The position numbers and the translations under genes are program-made. The notes beneath the pieces are model-generated. The model was not told the origin of the DNA, did no database searches, and saw nothing but the letters and a program-made list of their open reading frames with translations. From Polytrichum commune (taxonomy: Eukaryota > Streptophyta > Polytrichopsida > Polytrichales > Polytrichaceae): DNA of 64,000 bases. The stretch spans positions 50,855,554 to 50,919,553 of the forward strand of contig OX485803.1 of assembly GCA_950295325.1 (NCBI GenBank). The letters run 5' to 3'. The number at the start of each line of letters is the position of its first letter. Position 1 is the stretch's first letter. Of the stretch, positions 2,818-33,300 are shown one piece after another.

Positions 2818-5800
2818 ATGGCATCTAGAGAGAATGAGACATATACAAAGTTGGAGCTACAAGATGGTGAGAACTCACAAGAGACCCAGATTCTATTTGT
2901 GAAGGGTACATGGTATCCAACACATTTCTGGCTCTCTGTTCTGGATGGCCAAGACACTTGGACATTCAATGGTAAGGTTCAAGTCTTCTTTTTAGACTTA
3001 GGTATTCAAGTTGAAAGCATGTGGGTTATATTTCCTTCAGGTTCGTGTAAAGAGACACATTCTTGCATTATTTATGTAACAAGAAACTAAGCTAAGAGGA
3101 ACATAGACCATTTTCAAGGCCTAACAAAAATGAAGAGATTCATTTTTTTTCATAAACCTAAATTGGTATAATATGGGGAACATACATAGAGAAGAATGAA
3201 CAATTTATAGCACTTGGGTTATTGGCAGCTTCAATGGAGTTTGTGGCCCATGAAGCAAGTGAATGGGGAATTGGAGTGGAGGAGTGGTTGGACAAATTCC
3301 AAATGCATTTGAGTCATCAACACTCAAAGAACAACTATGCCTTCATAAATGTTGGTGACAATTCCAAAATGGCAAGTCCTCCATGTATGTTACCTTTTCT
3401 TGTACATGATTCTCGTCGTGCACAACTTGAGATGTTGATAGTCGTAATTTTGGGAGTCTTCAATTGGGGTTGAGAATGGCTTCACAATAGATTCAAAAAG
3501 TCATGTGGCAAGGGCAATCAACAAATTTAATATTGAAATATTATAGTTTTGAACTATGAATTTACAAAGTTGTGACTTGATGCTCATCTTAACACAACTT
3601 AATGTCAAAGTTGAAGAACAATGTTGGAGAACAATGTTGAAATCAGTATTATCGAAGGAGCCCATGATGATGCAAGGGTATAAATTTGTAGTTTATAGAT
3701 AAGGGCAAGAATGAGAACATGTGGTATAGCGCACACAGGATGTGTTAAGAGAGAAAAACATAGTGTATATACAACATCAAGCAGGGATTGGTTTGCGCTT
3801 TGACAGCTACAGTGTTCCATCTACAATGAAGTGCGACATGAAAGGCAAGTGGTGAGCTTGTTGTTGGACAAAACCACCAGATGTGGACAAGTCGCCTTTG
3901 AAATACTTGGGCTTTTGGTGGACACAAATGCAAAACAAAATGTATGCACCAATCTTATATATTTATGATGGAGAACCTGTAACCCTAAAACGTGAGTTCA
4001 TAACACTTTATAAATAGATTTCCAACACTTTGGACTAGCCAAATATAGTTTAATGTGAAATTCAAATTTTACCATGACCCAATATCTTGTCTCATGAACC
4101 CAGCACAAGGTGCATGTGAATGTCAAAGGTTTTCTATTTTTGTGGACATAAAAAACCATTGTTGGGTTTTGACTTGAACGATGTCAAACAATTTCATATC
4201 TCTTAAGGCTATAGGAAACTAGCTTTGTATCATGTTGAAAATTCTCTTTGGGACACAAAGTTGACATGCATGCACCTTGCTAAATGCAAGAGCTCTATAA
4301 AGTTGGATATAACTCACTTGAAATCAAATTTTAATCTTGGAAATGCCATTGTGAAATAATATGTAATCTTACTTTATTATTTTAGGCGTGAAATCACCTT
4401 TGGATATCCATAAACTTGTGGAGTTATTATTTCCACATGTCCCCTCTTATAGGATATGATGAAACCGATTCATGAAAATAATATATGTGCAGGAGGAGTT
4501 GGCCCGGAAGACTCGTGACATTCAACGGATGGTAGCAGAGATACGTGAGCTTAGGCACAATCCCAATGAACACATCAAAATGGAACACAATATATCTACG
4601 GAGATGTACTACCATACTGGTATGGCCCATGAACCAGCATACAACCTTAAGGAGTCACAAAGCAAATGGCCAATCTCTAGAGTCACTAGTCTAAGCAAAG
4701 ACTTGTCGGTTGGATACTATGTTGAAGAAGTGGGCCACGTAGACAAATCTTTAATCGAACATCTTGCTCAAGATGATAGTTGGGAAAACATCCAAAATTT
4801 GGCAAACAAATCAGGCTATCATAAAGATGATCGACCGTATCTAGAACCACAAACAGGACGACAATACAGTGGACACACAGGAGATTTGCAACAAGATCAA
4901 AAATCTACCAAAATATCACATTTAGGGTCTCATCAATCCGTTGCACTCAACAGAGAGCCTTCATCAAAAATCAATAACCTACCAAGCCGCCCTAATTCAA
5001 GATCCAATTCGAGGAGAACTTCATGGAATGCACTTGATTCGACATCTGGTAAAAAATCAAACACTATAATATAAGTGCTATGAGCAAAACAACATAGTGA
5101 AAGACATCCATTATATTGCAAGAAGGGTCTTTGAATATAAACGTGTAAGGCATTTTGCTAGTCTTTTTGTACACATCACGAGTGTCAATATGTCTAACAT
5201 TCCAACCTCAAAAGGAAGATTATGTTGGAAAGTTTCATACATTCATGATCAAAACACAATGACTCTTTGAAGATTACCCTAGATTTATGTAGTCCAAGGT
5301 CGAGCTCAATCAAGGTTATCGTTGTATGAATCAGCTCAACAATCTTCAACACCAAGTTGGAGCCGAACATCAACATCAGAGAACAAGATTCAACCAAAGC
5401 AAGCTATGTTCCTCATTACTGATGGTCGAAATATAGATGAAGTGACTTCAGGTGTGAAAAGAAATCACCGATCAAGGTTATTATCACATGCATATCTACA
5501 ACAATGTATATTTTGATAGGCTTTTTGAAGCAACAACTAGGTTTAGAATCAACGGAATATAAACATGTTGGTTTCAATATTCAACATAGAAGGACAATCA
5601 CACCTATACTTAAGTGTGATGAATCATTGAGAAACCTTACTTTCATCTAGTGTTGTAATGTAAGGGTCCAAATGAAGCAACCAACTCAAAAAAATCTCAT
5701 CAAATTACTTTATATTGTTTAGGTCAAAATCCAAACATGATATGTATTGGAACCAAAACCGATTTCATTATTTATTTTACTTAATGAATGTGAGAAAATT

Positions 5801-8800
5801 TACACATCATGATGTCTTAATATGCAATTGATGGCAGAAGACAATTCCATCTCCGCAAATCATTCAAAATACAATTCATATGTTCCATCCCAACAAAAGA
5901 TGATTGAGGATTCTCACAAATCTACGACTTTTGGAGAAGAGAAGGAACCTCAATCAAGGTTGTCAAATACGTCATTATCACTATCTATGGCTGAGAATTG
6001 GAGCTTAGAGCCACCCGTACTAGACAATGAATATCAAATAAGAGAAGCTTCTCACTTCAACTTTGACGGCCAAGGTTCAAGGGAAGAGGATACAAGTACG
6101 GATGACAATTTTCAATCAAGACACTCCCACACATCCACTAGACAAGTGATGGAGTCTAGGATGAGTCAAAAAAATATGCAATCATCAATGAAGAATGACA
6201 AGGAAGATTTTGGAGAAGAAGCATCTCAAGATCATAGTAGACAAAATGGAGGTCAAAATCAAGATATTTCTTCAAGAGCACAATCCCATACTAAATATGA
6301 TCCATCTAAACCAAATTATCTAGACACACAAGCCAAGTCCAATGTTGTGCATCAAGACCTAAATTCCTCAAGCTATTCAACGCGAATTTCATTTGGCCCT
6401 CAACAATTGGTCGGTTCACATAAATCAAACAATCCATCATATGCAAGGCCTCAAAGCCAAGAAACATTAGAGATGCCAATTCACGCAATGAAATTATCAT
6501 ATCATGAACCTGCACGAGAATCAATGATTTCTAAACCTCAACAAGTCTCAACTCAAATGAAGATTGTCATGAAATCTAATAATAAACAGTCAATGACGTC
6601 ATTATACGATCTAGAGCAAAAACACTCAAATGGAGTAGTGGATGCAAATTACATCACTACAAACCCTGACATGAACAATGACAAATCAATATCATTCCAA
6701 GAACGTGAACACTCAATGACAAGCGACGCCCTTTATGAAGGTGAGAATGATCAAAAAAATATAGAAATTCCCGTACTCAATATTGAAGACAAAGATGATC
6801 AAATAACAACAGGGCGACCATATACTAGATTTTCAAAGAATCAACTTCAAGGGAATGCTTCCATATCACAATCCCGCTCTGAGCATCCACCATCTACAGT
6901 ACATCACAATGAACTACCGATCAGAATCACTCATTTAAGATGGGGTGTTAATTCAACTTCGGACCCAAGATGGAGGGAACCTAGTGAACCACCTGAAATT
7001 GTGGGTGTATTGAGATCAAGCACATCATCTTATGCAAAACCTATCAACCAAAATTTAACAACTATCTCATTTGCGAATGAAGAGCAAAGAATTGCATACA
7101 TTCCCCCTCAAGGGTTGAGGAGTGAATCGACAAATGTCTTGGACATATCAACATTGGATGACGAAAGGATAAACATAGACCCACCAATGCATTCAACACA
7201 AACATCTGCTAGACCATCAGGGGTACACCAAGAGTTTCATGAACACCATGAAATGGTAAGGTTTTCTATGCACGACACAGAACAAGATTCACATCGATGG
7301 TACAGTGGGCATCCAAGAGGACAAAATCAAGGAGGTGCCTCGAGAATGCAATCCTATGTCGATAATCCACAATCCATTTTACACCAAGGAGATACTCCAT
7401 TGAGAACCAGTCATGTAACTTGGGGCCGAAATCATATGCAAGTCGAAGGTTCAAGAGAAGTTTCAATTCTTGATACTCAAACATCTCGTCCATTCGAATC
7501 AAGGACATTGTCAGCTTTTGGGAATCGAAACTCTAGCCAAACCTCACACAATATGACAACCTCTAATCGGAGACCAACAACTTTTGACAAAATTTCTCAT
7601 GTTGAACAAACAATGGATGATGCAGCACATGAGACTCACAGAAGGGGTGACTCAAGTACTTCAATCATCCCTCTTGAAAAAACTGTGACTGACAATGAAA
7701 ACACGTTGGAGCCTTCAACACAAGGAAAGGATACTAATTCAAAACCATCATCCATATCAGAAGCTCTACAATCATTCGCTGAGAATTTGGGCCTGGTATC
7801 TCCAAAAGTAGACGAACAAAAAGAATCTAAAGATACTACTCTAGCCACAACAAAGGACAACAATAAGAACTATCAAGACTCTACAAATTATAATGAGCAA
7901 CAAATATCATACAGGGGACCACAACAATCAATATCACACACGACTCAGACCATGTATCATGTTGATGATGATGAGAACAGTTCAAGTTTGTTCTCAACGT
8001 ATTATGAACCTCGTGAATCTATAGTTGTACCACCAACTCAAGATGATAGAATCGAATCAACAGGACCATTGCATACCACAGATGACAACTCCACCACAAA
8101 GAGTTCAGTAGAAAGTGTGTCAAGTGAACCATCAACATCAAGTTTTTTCAGTAGACTATCATTTAATCCATTTGCTCATAAATCTTCTATTTCTAAGGAA
8201 CCTATCCCATCAGAGGTTGAAGATGAGCTGAGAAAAGAGTTGCATCGAACTCTTGGTAGGCCATCAAAGTCATCAAGTATTGGGCCAAACAACACCCAAG
8301 ATGAAACAATTGGTTCAAGAAGAACATCGTTAATACGACTTGACAATGGTGAGGTGGTGGATCGAATAGCATATGAAAATGCTCTGAAAGACAATGAGCA
8401 AGGAATAAAGTCTAGACAAACATCCTCTTCCAAACTTGATGAACCGGATCAATCAAGACCATCAACATACAGATCAACTTTACAGTCATTCGCAGAAAGT
8501 TGGGGCTTGATATCTCCAAAAGTAGACAATGTTAATGAAGAACAAGAAATCATACATACTAATGCAGAGGACAAGGCTAATAAACCTTCAAATATCATCC
8601 CTCCAATTGGCCAACAAGCATCATACAAAGGATCACCCTCTGAAGAACCAAAGGAGGGTTATGGAAGTGCCATGATCCTTTCAAAAATGTCACCATGGTC
8701 TTGGATGAGGGGAGAAACTCAAAGAAGATATTCTGTGGACATAATGAAACAAAAACCAAAAATACAACAAAGATATTCACATAATACACTTCCAAGGTCA

Positions 8801-9544
8801 GATACATCTTTTTCAAGGCAATCCATACAGTTCAAAGATGATAGAATGATTAATAAACCATCTTTCTCAACAAGTTCAAGGAGCCTAGGAAATTCTACAC
8901 CAAACACAAATTACAATAGGGCATCACAAAGTCCACGCACATCACAAGCTTCACCTAGAAATCAACAATCAATTCATTTTAGAGAAGATAATGAAATCAA
9001 TACACAAGTCGCATCAAATAATCAAGACGATGGCCCAGATGTTGCTTCTAGTTCCCAGAGATCATCTTTTGACAAGCATGAGAAGAGCTCTCTCAACGAA
9101 AGAGAAGTTGAAGATCCTCACAATTTTGAGTACAACGTTTATGATGAACGAAAACTTACTCCGTATCCAATGAGTTCCTTGACTACAGCGTCAAGCTTGA
9201 AAATGTCGCCACTTGCCAAGCAAAGTATGAACAAAGAATTTGACCAGACAGGTGTTGCTTGTGATGAAGATACTATACAATGCACAGCTAACATCCGTTT
9301 CCTTATCCCAAAAAAATCAAGCTCATCATTGGCAGAGCATGGCCAATTTGCTTCTCGTATGTCAAGAGCCAGTAGTCCTCAGGTAGAGAGGTTAGGTTTA
9401 AGGCCTCCCGCAGAGGAACCATGGTGTCCTTATTGCAAAAGTCCCAAAGAAGATCAAAATGTAGGTCAGGAGATATCACTTGGGTTGAGGTTTAGTGGTA
9501 AGAGCAGACAAGGTCAACAAAGGCAAGTCACAAGAGGGGGCTAG
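2818..9544 (+). CDS. XRCC4-like protein with very long disordered tail
   Basis: Proposed exons: 2818-2971, 3229-3371, 3813-3941, 4493-5048, 5335-5451 and 5838-9544. They join in phase to 1,601 residues and end in TAG. Exon 1 has the plant XRCC4 head signature (YTKLELQDGE, then FVKGTWYPTHFWLSVLDG). Exon 2 continues it (ASEWGIGVEEWLDKF, then YAFINVGDNSK). Exon 3 carries ILGLLVDTNAKQN where XRCC4 has its ILDFLMDAN-like helix. Exon 4 opens with a coiled coil (EELARKTRDIQRM) resembling the XRCC4 stalk. XRCC4 is the scaffold for DNA ligase IV in non-homologous end joining, in the nucleus. Plant XRCC4 is normally about 250-270 residues. Here about 1,400 residues rich in Ser, Asn, Gln, Thr and His follow, without recognised domains, ending near PWCPYCKSPK. 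Intron 2 has a GC donor. Exon 5 has a weak acceptor and exon 3 limits are tentative. The 3.7-kb last exon without a stop in AT-rich DNA argues strongly for coding. Head and tail could still be two genes. Confidence 0.72.
3372..3812 (+). other. Probable GC-AG intron of the XRCC4-like gene
   Basis: After the conserved VGDNSK segment the exon ends AAAATG, followed by GCAAGT, which is the exact consensus of the minor GC-AG intron class. No GT nearby gives a usable donor. Reading through gives unrelated residues and a stop at about 3473. The acceptor at 3811-3812 (CTACAG) keeps phase 0 and leads into the helix-like exon. Confidence 0.5.
7760..7814 (+). repeat. Internal protein repeat, copy 1, in the XRCC4-like tail
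   Basis: Encodes ALQSFAENLGLVSPKVD. The second copy about 714 bases downstream differs at only a few residues. About 30 residues further on, both are followed by an ISYRG / ASYKG motif. This is the clearest conserved module in an otherwise low-complexity region. Confidence 0.7.
8474..8527 (+). repeat. Internal protein repeat, copy 2, in the XRCC4-like tail
   Basis: Encodes TLQSFAESWGLISPKVD, matching copy 1 at most positions (LQSFAE..GL.SPKVD). Conservation of hydrophobic, Trp/Leu and Pro positions within low-complexity sequence suggests a short binding motif rather than random drift. Confidence 0.7.
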
Positions 9545-10302: not shown

Positions 10303-10568
10303 AAGAGAGCGAGATACAACCGATAATCAAACACATGTCATGTAATTTAATATAACCAGAAACTGAACAGGGAGGTTCTTCTCCGGGGGAAACAGCTTCT
10401 TGCAACTCAATATCCTCACAATAAGGTTACAATACTCAGGGTTACACCACCATGATTTTAGTCAAAATTTGCCATTTACGTCTTTTTGTCCTTGGCCAGA
10501 TTATAACACATCTAGCAAACCAATGGTCTCATGCACCCAACTTCCATGCTATCATTAGATTGTTTATT

Positions 10569-11092
10569 GGAATTTAGTGTCACGTGTGCACTACTTGCAA
10601 AGGGCCTAAACTAGATGCCTACAGGTCTCAAAGTGTTATGTTTGCTAATTGCTAATACAATACTATTCCTCAACATAGGTATCTATTTTAAGTGGAATTT
10701 TTTTTTCACATCATGACATTTTGCGTACCACATTAGATACTTGGGATGATAGTTTTGCATTTCAGTATGCAAGAAGAAGATAAAACTGAGCATAATAAAA
10801 TGGCAATGTGTGATATGTTTACATTTAGTATGCAAGAGTAAGATAGTTTTGAACATGTTAATGCCAAGTGTCATTTGTGTGCACTTCACTCAACTTGTAG
10901 ACCATTTTATAAAATAGTCATACACCTCATAACATTATCGAAACATACTCTTGCTAAGATATTAGTAAGCACACTTATTGTCGAGTGTCGTTCAAGGTGA
11001 CACTAATAATGAAGTTGTTGGTCATTAGTGCAACCTAGCATACACCTCAAAATAGAGTAAGTGACACTATTATGCATGTGACATTAAATACC
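10569..11092. mobile_element. Non-autonomous TIR element, family 1, copy A
   Basis: About 524 bp. Starts GGAATTTAGTGTCAC and ends GTGACATTAAATACC, an imperfect terminal inverted repeat. The interior aligns along its length with the copy at 32627-33136 (shared blocks such as GATAGTTTTG, AGTATGCAAG and CACCTCATAACATTAT). It has no coding capacity, so it would need a transposase in trans. Confidence 0.75.
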
Positions 11093-14000
11093 ATAAACGT
11101 TGTAATGGAGTTCCTTGTGTTTATATGCCCATGTGAAACGTTGGCTTCCAATTTGACTTGTGAAACACACAACCTGTTCACAGCAAGTCCAGCATTGCTT
11201 GAGGATCTTAAATATTACTAACATACATGCAGATTCTATGATTTATGTCTGCAAACATCCTCTAACGCGACTCGAGTCTACCATTTCAGGAATAAAAAAT
11301 GCATTAACAGTGACCTAGTCACAGCATCAAGTGGATTTGCAATAAACCTTAGAGTCAGTGTGAATGTTTGACAAATTTTCATCTAACGTAAACCTTCAAA
11401 GCCAAAGTGTCACATGACGTTTTCAAAAACAAAACAAAATGGCAACTGACATGTACATTCGATTCTAGAATGGCATCTCAACTTTTGATTACACAATATT
11501 TTGAAAACTAATAATATAACTAGTAAAAATGTATGCTTGATTCGTAAACAAAAACCTATCAATCGAGCGTAAGTATCTTTTGATCTCGCACATTTCTCCA
11601 AATGTTGAAGCAGGGAGGCCAATCCATTGCATCCACCTCAAGCCCATAAAGAGAGACCTACATACGAGAGCATCGAGGGTCTTCAAGTTAAACCTATTAT
11701 GCAAGTGGCTTTTATTGCATTTTGCTTTGAAAATCCTCGCTCACAAATAGTTATACTTGATGGAATGAGTATAGCCTTTTGCTAAAGTTGCATAAGTTTA
11801 GGCCAATTTGTATACCACTCCAGATTGCTACCACAAAGACGCCAAGCCTCAAATATTGTTTTGTTCTCACACTCATGTCTAAGTGTTTCCCTAAATTTCA
11901 AAAGTTCTCCCTTACACATGTCATTTCTTCTATAATGTATGGAAACTTCAACAATATCCTTTCGAACCATAGTTCAATATTTGATTCAATCACTATCATC
12001 ACTTGGATAATGATGAGGGCTGAAAAGTTTAGTTGCATTGAAAATTGGAAGGTATGGGAAATGATCATTCAAAGCATGAACAATTTTTTGCACCCAAAAG
12101 CATGCATTGTTGTAGTTCATTAGGCCCATCAGTTGATAATGCATGAATGATATGATCTCATGTATTGTTTTCATAACTCAATTAAAGATTTTTTGTTAAT
12201 TCTCTCAAGATTTCTCAAGTGTGTAATCTAGTGCAGAGTTCTCCAATTGGTATGGGATTTATTTAAGTTGCTTATTAGTACAAGTCACTTCAATTTCTAA
12301 AGTGTCAATTGACATGTGATTGTTTTCTTCGCGTGTCACACTACATGTCGAATTTTAAACTGTGTGTATCAAATCACATGCAATTATTTTTGTGCAAGTT
12401 TCTGTGTCAAATGCCAAAAACTAGCAAAAGCTTTGTCAAAAATACATACAACTTAGAGTTGGGCTTTACTCAATGGGAATTTTTGTCAAGAATATGCCAC
12501 GTCTAATTTCCCATTGGTTGTTTTCCATACATCATCAATCATTTTTTTGGGCCACTTGAGGTGCATGCTCAGAGGTAGTGTTTAAATTCATTGAAGAACA
12601 ACCTATTTTTATTCATTGAGGGCCAAACTCATTGTAGCACTTTTTGACATGCCAAAATAAGTTTGGCCCTTAGTGAACCGATGTGGAGTGTTCTTGTTAA
12701 ACCTCCACAATGCCGTCAAGCATGCACCAAAAGCTCACCAAACAAAAATTTGGTTTTGTATGTAAACATGGTCTCACCATGACCAAAGTGAAGGTACAAT
12801 AAAGAAAGAAAAGAAAATAAGGTCATGCATAGCCCAAGATGGGTGAGTTTGTTTGCCAAGATCAAGGACCATGATTGTAGGGCACTAGTTTGACATGCGT
12901 TGTCTTGACCCGTTGCACCGGTGCATAGATGATTACAAATCACATCAACTTAGGTGCATGCCACACGAGAGCCAGAGGAAGTTTTACAACTTCCTCCAAC
13001 ATGGCACTTTGCTTGTAAAAAGTCTCCTTTTCCTTGTTTTTCTCCTTATACTGTGGAATTCCGGGCACTAGTGCCCGGTAGTTGCGAACTACATTTATTG
13101 TGCCATGTCACTCTACTTTATTGCCAAGTAGATCCCGAAGCAATATCCAAAGAAAAATCCAAAGCTAAAAAGTCATTGTTGCCACTCCCCATACTTCCTC
13201 TCATGTGGCAACCACTTGCTCATTTGAACCAATGCTATTCATCCAACTCACTGCCGTTCATGCAAGTTTCCTCCCGTGTGGTTTGGACCTAATCCCCCCT
13301 CCCATGGTCCCCAGCAATCCGAGCCAGGCTAAAACAGTGGGCAATGATGAGGAATGGTGGGATGGCAACCTCACCCAATACCACCACATCCATCACATGT
13401 GTATCGTATATTAAATAGCGGAGGATGGTTAAATGCCTACTTTTTAAGAGGGGGACCGTGTTGGAAAGCAAGTGACCTCATTCAAAGTGGATCGGTGCCT
13501 GGTTTTTCCATAATTTGCCGATTGTTGACTATCATGTGTGGCACCACAGATACATGTGGCAGGGTGGGGTGGGGAAGAATGTGCCATCCAATTTGTGTGC
13601 AATGTAAGAGCACTGCAACATGTTTATTTTGTTTCCAAGTAAGTTAGTAGCAATGTTTGGTAACAAATGCATGGAAGGAATCATGAGGGAGTTGTATTTT
13701 GAGGGTTTTAAGTACTCTAGGTGCCATCATTTATGATCATAAAGCAACGACTTTGTGGGAGGGACATAAGTATGTTGGCGATAATTTGTATGGGCTATAC
13801 ATATGGTTTTGAGATGTTGATATGCTTAGTAGTGTGGTTTGAGAGGAGATGAGGACAATTACCAGTTGTTGGCTCTGTCTATAGGACAGAGACTATGCAT
13901 CAACTTCTTCGTTTCAAGAGCAAATTTCCTAACCACTTTGTGTTCACACTTGAACATTACTTGTTCTTGTTATTTTTGGTCCACTGTATTTAATGTGGAT

Positions 14001-32404: not shown

Positions 32405-33300
32405 TATGAAATGAATTGAAATCGATTTAAAGTCCAAGAATCCAAAAGGCTTGTGAGAGTAGAAATACATCAAGATGTTGTCAATGAGGTTAATTCTCTA
32501 AAGTAACGGAGTGTAATGACCTTAATAAGATATAGCTTAACATCAACTTGATGGTCTAGTTGGAAGAAAGACTTGAGAGCAAGGTAGATGCATCTCAAAA
32601 GTTACCTTTTCCAACTACATCATTGTGGTATTTAGTGTCACATACATTATTTTTGAAGAGCCTAAACTAGATGCCTAGAGGTCTCAAAATATCACGTTTG
32701 CTAATAGCCAATATGATATTAGTTGTAAAAAAAAGTAATTTTTTGAAGTGAACAAATATTTACATTATGACATTTAGCACATTGGGATACTTGAGGTGAT
32801 AGTTTTGTGTTTTAGTATGCAAGGGGAAAAAAATATATTGAGCATACCAATGGCATGTGCTATGTGTTTACAATTTAGTACACAAGAGGAAGATATTTAT
32901 GAGCATACTAATGTCGTGCCATTTGTGTACACTTTAGTCAACTTGTACCCATTGTGTAACATAAGAATACACCTCATAACATTATTAAACATACTCATGC
33001 CAATATTAATAAGCACACTTGAATCCCAAGTGTCATGAGGTGACATTAATGATGAACTTTGTTGATCATTGGTGTAACCTAACATACGTCTCAAAATAGG
33101 GTAAGTGACACTATTACACATGTGACACTAAATACCATAAATGATTAAATGAAGTTGTTGAATGACATTACAACACAAAGTGTGCTTCATTTTCAACTAC
33201 CTTTCATAACAAAAATGCAATAATCTTTTATCCCTAGAGATTGGGATAGTCAACCACTGGCTAATTTCAATGTCAAGTCTATGATTACCATATAAGATTA
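32405..33300 (-). pseudogene. LINE-like remnant split by a TIR element
   Basis: The flanks on both sides of the TIR element at 32627-33136 align with the uninterrupted remnant at 17374-17892 (AAAAGGCTTGTG, AACATCAACTTGATGGTC, then AGAGATTGGGATAGTCAACC). This copy is therefore the same LINE-like debris with a later insertion. It is too diverged to translate for any length. Confidence 0.6.
32627..33136. mobile_element. TIR element, family 1, copy C (best preserved)
   Basis: 510 bp. The ends are a perfect 16-bp inverted repeat, GGTATTTAGTGTCACA at the left and TGTGACACTAAATACC at the right. No coding capacity. It sits inside LINE-like debris that is continuous at 17.6 kb, which confirms the boundaries by comparison with the empty site. 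Confidence 0.88.

Follow-up and report, generated by a model that had tools for sequence, protein, structure and literature searches.

XRCC4 is usually regarded as a dedicated partner of ligase IV. We know of no member of the XRCC4 superfamily, whether XLF, PAXX, SAS6 or CCDC61, with a tail near the length of the one described below. The excerpt of PMC7267773 drawn on here gives the superfamily a head, a coiled coil and a C-terminal low-complexity region, all features that the present protein resembles, and states that its heads and coils form dimers, which are able to build higher-order assemblies. In Physcomitrella, the canonical XRCC4 gene Pp3c1_38430 is reported as raised 149-fold in an extract from work on breaks induced by bleomycin (PMC4990234). 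Another article (PMC8803787) mentions a further XRCC4-like gene of this moss, Pp3c14_21160, as not differentially expressed. The latter is like the gene described here in that a plant without flowers is reported to have XRCC4-like genes beyond the first, a likeness that we draw from its description only. Among the best matches listed in our literature searches, no title or abstract opening pointed to a plant XRCC4 with a long tail.

The window analysed here is the whole 64,000-nucleotide stretch C1:50855554-50919553 of the 408-Mb genome of Polytrichum commune. A preliminary description of this DNA had proposed that an XRCC4 head is joined in frame to a disordered tail of about 1,400 residues, and when we translated the six-exon chain listed in Table 1 it gave 1,601 residues with no inner stop. 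The N-termini of two paralogues, L001 (C7:28.1M) and L002 (C2:68.3M), align to the same methionine as the start of exon 1. The donor of intron 2 is GC (ATG|GCAAGT), and we regard it as credible because introns at the matching place fit in paralogues and in the canonical XRCC4 gene of the same genome. The borders of exon 5 are unsure, with alternative in-frame acceptors at 5293, 5299, 5305 and 5380 and in-frame donors at 5424 and 5505, and exon 6 has an alternative start at 5841. The frame of exon 6 is free of stops from 5813 to 9544 (1,243 codons); 300 sequences of 3,707 bases simulated at order 2 yielded stop-free frames of up to 249 codons, and the open frame of exon 6 is thus far beyond chance. 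Elsewhere in the window, positions 1-560 on the minus strand read like an exon of what is presumably a cysteine desulfurase gene, and the stretches 10568-11112 and 32626-33156 are 77% alike and perhaps belong to a dispersed repeat.

Table 1. Positions in the window of the predicted exons, tail repeats and tail motifs.
Feature	Position	Strand	Content	Evidence
Exon 1	2818..2971	+	Start codon; XRCC4-like head, first half; end phase 1	Pfam XRCC4 on composite
Exon 2	3229..3371	+	Second half of head; GC-AG intron after it, phase 0	Pfam, L001 alignment, introns of paralogues and canonical locus
Exon 3	3813..3941	+	End of head and linking helix; end phase 0	L001 alignment, paralogue introns
Exon 4	4493..5048	+	Short stalk (to about residue 165), start of disordered tail, most of R1	L001 alignment, R1/R2, HMM
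Exon 5	5335..5451	+	End of R1; 5' border possibly upstream	Repeat alignment, splice-site scan, HMM
Exon 6	5838..9544	+	Ser-rich tail (1,234 full codons), then the stop codon	Open frame, translation, simulation, codon-position GC
Repeat R1	4760..5414	+	Residues 232-354, spans intron 4	Ungapped to R2; HMM
Repeat R2	6128..6496	+	Residues 464-586	Self-comparison, HMM
Repeat R3	6677..7051	+	Residues 647-771	Ungapped score of 109 for R3/R4, against at most 62 in 12 whole-tail shuffles
Repeat R4	7157..7528	+	Residues 807-930	Self-comparison, HMM
Motif M1	5951..6031	+	SLSMAENWSLEPPVLD	M1/M3 ungapped score 68
Motif M2	7739..7819	+	LQSFAENLGLVSPKVD	M2/M3 ungapped score 101
Motif M3	8453..8533	+	LQSFAESWGLISPKVD	Self-comparison with M1, M2
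C-terminal stretch with CPYC	9410..9538	+		Relative at C1:45.726M has stops

The assignment of the N-terminal residues to the XRCC4 family was borne out, as residues 26-104 of the spliced composite match the Pfam XRCC4 model PF06632 at 44.6 bits (E 1.5e-11, cut-off 26.2). Neither the XLF head (PF09302) nor the SAS6 head (PF16531) was listed for this composite at E up to 1, so that among these models the head sides with XRCC4 and differs from XLF and SAS6. When the window head alone was compared with PDB chains it gave three weak unrelated matches, none to XRCC4. A profile built from four heads of this genome, the canonical XRCC4 head included, did recover XRCC4: 17 of the 18 PDB sequences that it matched at E up to 1 were XRCC4 or XRCC4 chimeras. 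The charge-hydropathy line places the head, by a margin of 0.005, just on its folded side, and a head tree of six rows was saturated and gave no firm branch. The linking helix and a short stalk were also found as described before. Searched at E up to 1, residues 1-367 did not match the stalk model XRCC4_CC (PF21924), and a proline follows the stalk at residue 166.

Several comparisons bear on whether the exons belong together. Residues 1-157 align by tblastn with the intronless paralogue L001 at 34% identity over 160 columns, crossing junctions 1/2, 2/3 and 3/4 with no frame break. In the paralogues at C3:16.54M and C7:13.46M, introns of phases 1, 0 and 0 fit the three matching places, although the borders were picked by eye and this is a fit and not a blind test. 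In the canonical XRCC4 locus, introns fit where window introns 2 and 3 lie and intron 1 has no counterpart; the chain read there uses one of several open acceptors.

The same protein could in principle be read as two genes, a short head protein encoded by exons 1-4 or 1-5 and a single-exon Ser-rich protein. This arrangement would make use of the in-frame ATG at 5831 as a possible entry to exon 6, whose frame is already open at 5813, and of the stop at 5074 that ends the frame of exon 4 if it is read on without splicing. The product of exons 4 and 5, however, contains a repeat of which exon 6 has further copies. Residues 232-354 align with residues 464-586 in the self-comparison of the tail with an ungapped score of 87, which none of 300 shuffles reached under any of three schemes (best 64, 64 and 69), and exon 5 in the proposed frame contributes 40 of the 87 points on the same diagonal. 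With an HMM made from the exon 6 copies R2-R4 alone, the exon 4-5 product scores 18.7 bits and exon 4 alone 14.7 bits; a composition bias of 10.2 bits goes with the hit on exons 4-5, but the best of 1,000 decoys of the same composition still reached only 9.0 bits. The repeat thus ties the head to the tail independently of transcripts, and the tail would already begin in the head gene. The exon phases fit, and at C3:16.54M and C7:13.46M the head exons likewise precede long low-complexity exons. Junction 5/6, on the other hand, gained no support of its own, as residues 320-372 score 37, a value equalled by 80 of 500 shuffles; residues 320-450 score 78 (best shuffle 67), but the matching residues lie mainly in exon 6. 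This junction is placed by its splice signals and the open frame, from which the splicing of intron 5 is predicted. We judge the two-gene arrangement unlikely. As far as sequence can establish it, the observation that one gene joins an XRCC4 head in frame to a long tail is confirmed, through the open chain, the repeat common to exons 4-5 and 6, and the signals and frame at junction 5/6; that exons 4-6 form one unit appears less firm than the joining of exons 1-4.

The same genome contains a better candidate for XRCC4 itself. A short protein encoded at C1:40.56M matches PF06632 at 37.7 bits and XRCC4_CC, which we take to be the ligase IV-binding stalk, at 38.2 bits on an inferred chain (35.0 bits for XRCC4_CC in another run). 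Known plant XRCC4 proteins are several times shorter than the window protein, and the C1:40.56M locus fits this. The window protein resembles canonical XRCC4, both Physcomitrella Pp3c1_38430 and the C1:40.56M locus, in its PF06632 head, and the latter also in the places of introns 2 and 3; it differs from canonical XRCC4 in its length of about 1,600 residues, its repeat-built tail and the lack of an XRCC4_CC match. On these grounds C1:40.56M, rather than the window gene, is the canonical XRCC4 of this genome, and because the window protein fails the stalk test while a better candidate exists, the window gene is probably not the XRCC4 orthologue. The earlier suggestion that a plant XRCC4 had grown six-fold was not upheld. 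The model of the XRCC4-binding part of ligase IV (PF11411) had no match in this genome, nor in any of 14 control genomes, and a search of the genome for XLF was likewise without a match, as it was in its controls.

The C1:40.56M locus also weighs on the possibility that the window protein is a working XRCC4 of non-homologous end joining (NHEJ) with an enlarged tail, acting as an end-joining scaffold or a condensate platform. Its XRCC4-type head, the shared places of introns 2 and 3 and the higher-order assemblies attributed to superfamily members in the excerpt of PMC7267773 would all suit such a protein. We nevertheless consider it very unlikely, given the short XRCC4 with its XRCC4_CC match elsewhere in the genome, the window stalk that lacks this match and is followed by proline 166, and a tail that is not enriched in SQ/TQ sites (20 sites against 22.9 +/- 4.0 in shuffles, with 1,602 of 2,000 shuffles as high). 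The preliminary idea of an end-joining scaffold with a flexible arm is on this account retained in part: an arm or platform is a reasonable proposal, but a role in end joining has become less likely. An SQ/TQ cluster-domain protein, considered as a separate identification, was not supported by the same count.

XRCC4-type heads occur at further places in the genome. A Pfam XRCC4 search found four (C1:40.56M, C7:28.1M, C2:68.3M and C7:13.46M), which is a lower bound, as the search missed the window and C3 genes, whose heads are split. Besides the window gene, four loci with diverged heads carry or adjoin a DUF3444 domain, namely C7:28.1M, C2:68.3M, C7:13.46M and C3:16.54M. At the first of these, positions 2727-4925 of L001 encode head and DUF3444 in one uninterrupted 747-codon frame, an unambiguous fusion. 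In L002 the two lie in neighbouring frames; at C7:13.46M (L004 and L008) the head is followed by long low-complexity exons and, about 7 kb further, a split DUF3444; and C3:16.54M (L006 and L007), found through its DUF3444, has the same layout. At these three loci DUF3444 stands 1-8 kb past the head, a layout which suggests that head and DUF3444 are joined there too. A genome search with the first 367 residues of the window protein recovered four of the five other head loci, C7:13.46M at an E of 0.076 only, and missed C3. At C7:13.46M one frame contains near-tandem 'EEAPIRNRDxRNGG' repeats, and a 38-residue match of 68% to the stalk of this paralogue lies at C6:21526733-21526846, perhaps a diverged gene or a fragment. 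The spliced head of C7:13.46M reaches the XLF cut-off (25.3 against 24.6), and a SAS6 head is present at C2:49.62M; SAS6 together with DUF3444 would suit a land plant whose sperm are motile.

The window gene shares with these loci a diverged head, a low-complexity stretch after the stalk and the lack of an XRCC4_CC match; no such match was found at E up to 1 in L001, L002, the C3 model (240 residues) or the C7:13.46M model (236 residues). Its head introns in phases 1, 0 and 0 fit two of the four DUF3444-linked loci, C3 and C7:13.46M, while the heads of L001 and L002 are intronless. In contrast to these loci, the window gene has no listed DUF3444, as none of the eight DUF3444 matches listed in the genome falls within the window, and for this reason we do not place it among the genes that combine an XRCC4 head with DUF3444, despite the similar head introns. 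Nor could similarity between its tail and their linkers be detected: all six comparisons with the linkers of other XRCC4-head loci, made after removing stop signs from the linker translations, fell within 100 shuffles each. Between the C3 and C7:13.46M linkers, one of four comparisons exceeded the shuffles (64, best shuffle 58). Judged by its head, the window gene is a relative of genes that carry a C-terminal DUF3444, with an architecture that would appear distinct. A full-text search of 5.39 million articles found none that contained both 'XRCC4' and 'DUF3444'.

The tail comprises 1,436 residues, rich in serine (15.5%) and then in Glu, Thr, Gln and Asn. The charge-hydropathy line puts all ten of its blocks on the disordered side, in agreement with the disordered tail proposed before, and the tail would be expected to be disordered in vivo. 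None of three tail pieces matched a Pfam family at E up to 10, and no family was found for exon 4 or exon 6. In the self-comparison, ungapped segment pairs score 109, 101, 87 and 68, against 44-62 for 12 whole-tail shuffles; these segments define four degenerate repeats of about 120 residues each (R1-R4) and three versions of the motif LxSFAExWGLxSPKVD (M1-M3). Seven short patterns were counted, among which RxxS/T (33 against 19.3 +/- 3.9 in shuffles) and SR (25 against 13.3 +/- 3.3) stand out most; SP/TP is below the shuffles (13 against 19.0 +/- 3.7).

The window gene might alternatively be an XRCC4-head gene in decay, its DUF3444 gone and its tail drifting free of any function. Besides the lack of a listed DUF3444, the tail bears no selection signal: differences between its repeats are spread nearly evenly over the codon positions, giving no sign of constraint beyond the open frame, and the GC content of exon 6 by codon position is 0.451/0.435/0.286, the low third-position value lying under that of the introns (0.306-0.363), which gives no indication of selection on codon use. 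Among the genome matches listed, exon 6 has a single relative, L005, a dead fragment on the minus strand of the same contig at C1:45.726M, which retains parts of the tail and the 3' flank, most of the tail being missing between the two matched pieces. It matches the C-terminal stretch of the window tail at 58% over 60 residues, with two TAG stops, and in another alignment at 70% over 43 residues. Differences by codon position are 12/66, 14/68 and 14/66 in the C-terminal coding stretch (119/633 in the aligned flank) and 6/28, 3/29 and 1/28 in a second, small coding piece, and this comparison between window and L005 yields no usable selection signal. Decay, however, does not readily account for 1,601 codons that are still open with usable splice sites, nor for a tail that is repeat-amplified and not eroded, and we hold it to be improbable.

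With slightly better than even confidence, we favour the reading that the gene is a diverged XRCC4 paralogue, most likely encoding a dimeric scaffold with a repeat-built tail of 1,436 residues and probably not binding ligase IV. We infer the function of the window protein along these lines. The head and stalk would pair two chains and perhaps build larger arrays. The tail would have grown by internal duplication, as its four degenerate repeats and three motif copies suggest, and each tail would offer putative partners a series of docking motifs together with many RxxS/T sites. Ligase IV would probably no longer be held, and ligase IV end joining would have been left behind.

One canonical XRCC4 and at least five loci with a diverged XRCC4 head, four of which carry or adjoin DUF3444 and one of which is giant-tailed, point to reuse of the head as a general scaffold for dimerisation. 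The XRCC4 head alone, as a basis for annotation, can mislabel such genes as end-joining factors. According to the portion of PMC6453930 drawn on here, DUF3444 stands at the end of the DNMT3 methyltransferases in P. patens and in further streptophytes that do not flower, and a chromatin role for the DUF3444 members is therefore thinkable. More tentatively, and with rather more doubt than conviction, we propose that in this plant the XRCC4 head was recruited from ligase IV into a scaffold family outside NHEJ, usually with DUF3444, and that the window gene traded its DUF3444 for a huge repeat-amplified arm. If this is true, the XRCC4 head would be a module for chromatin scaffolds in addition to its part in repair.
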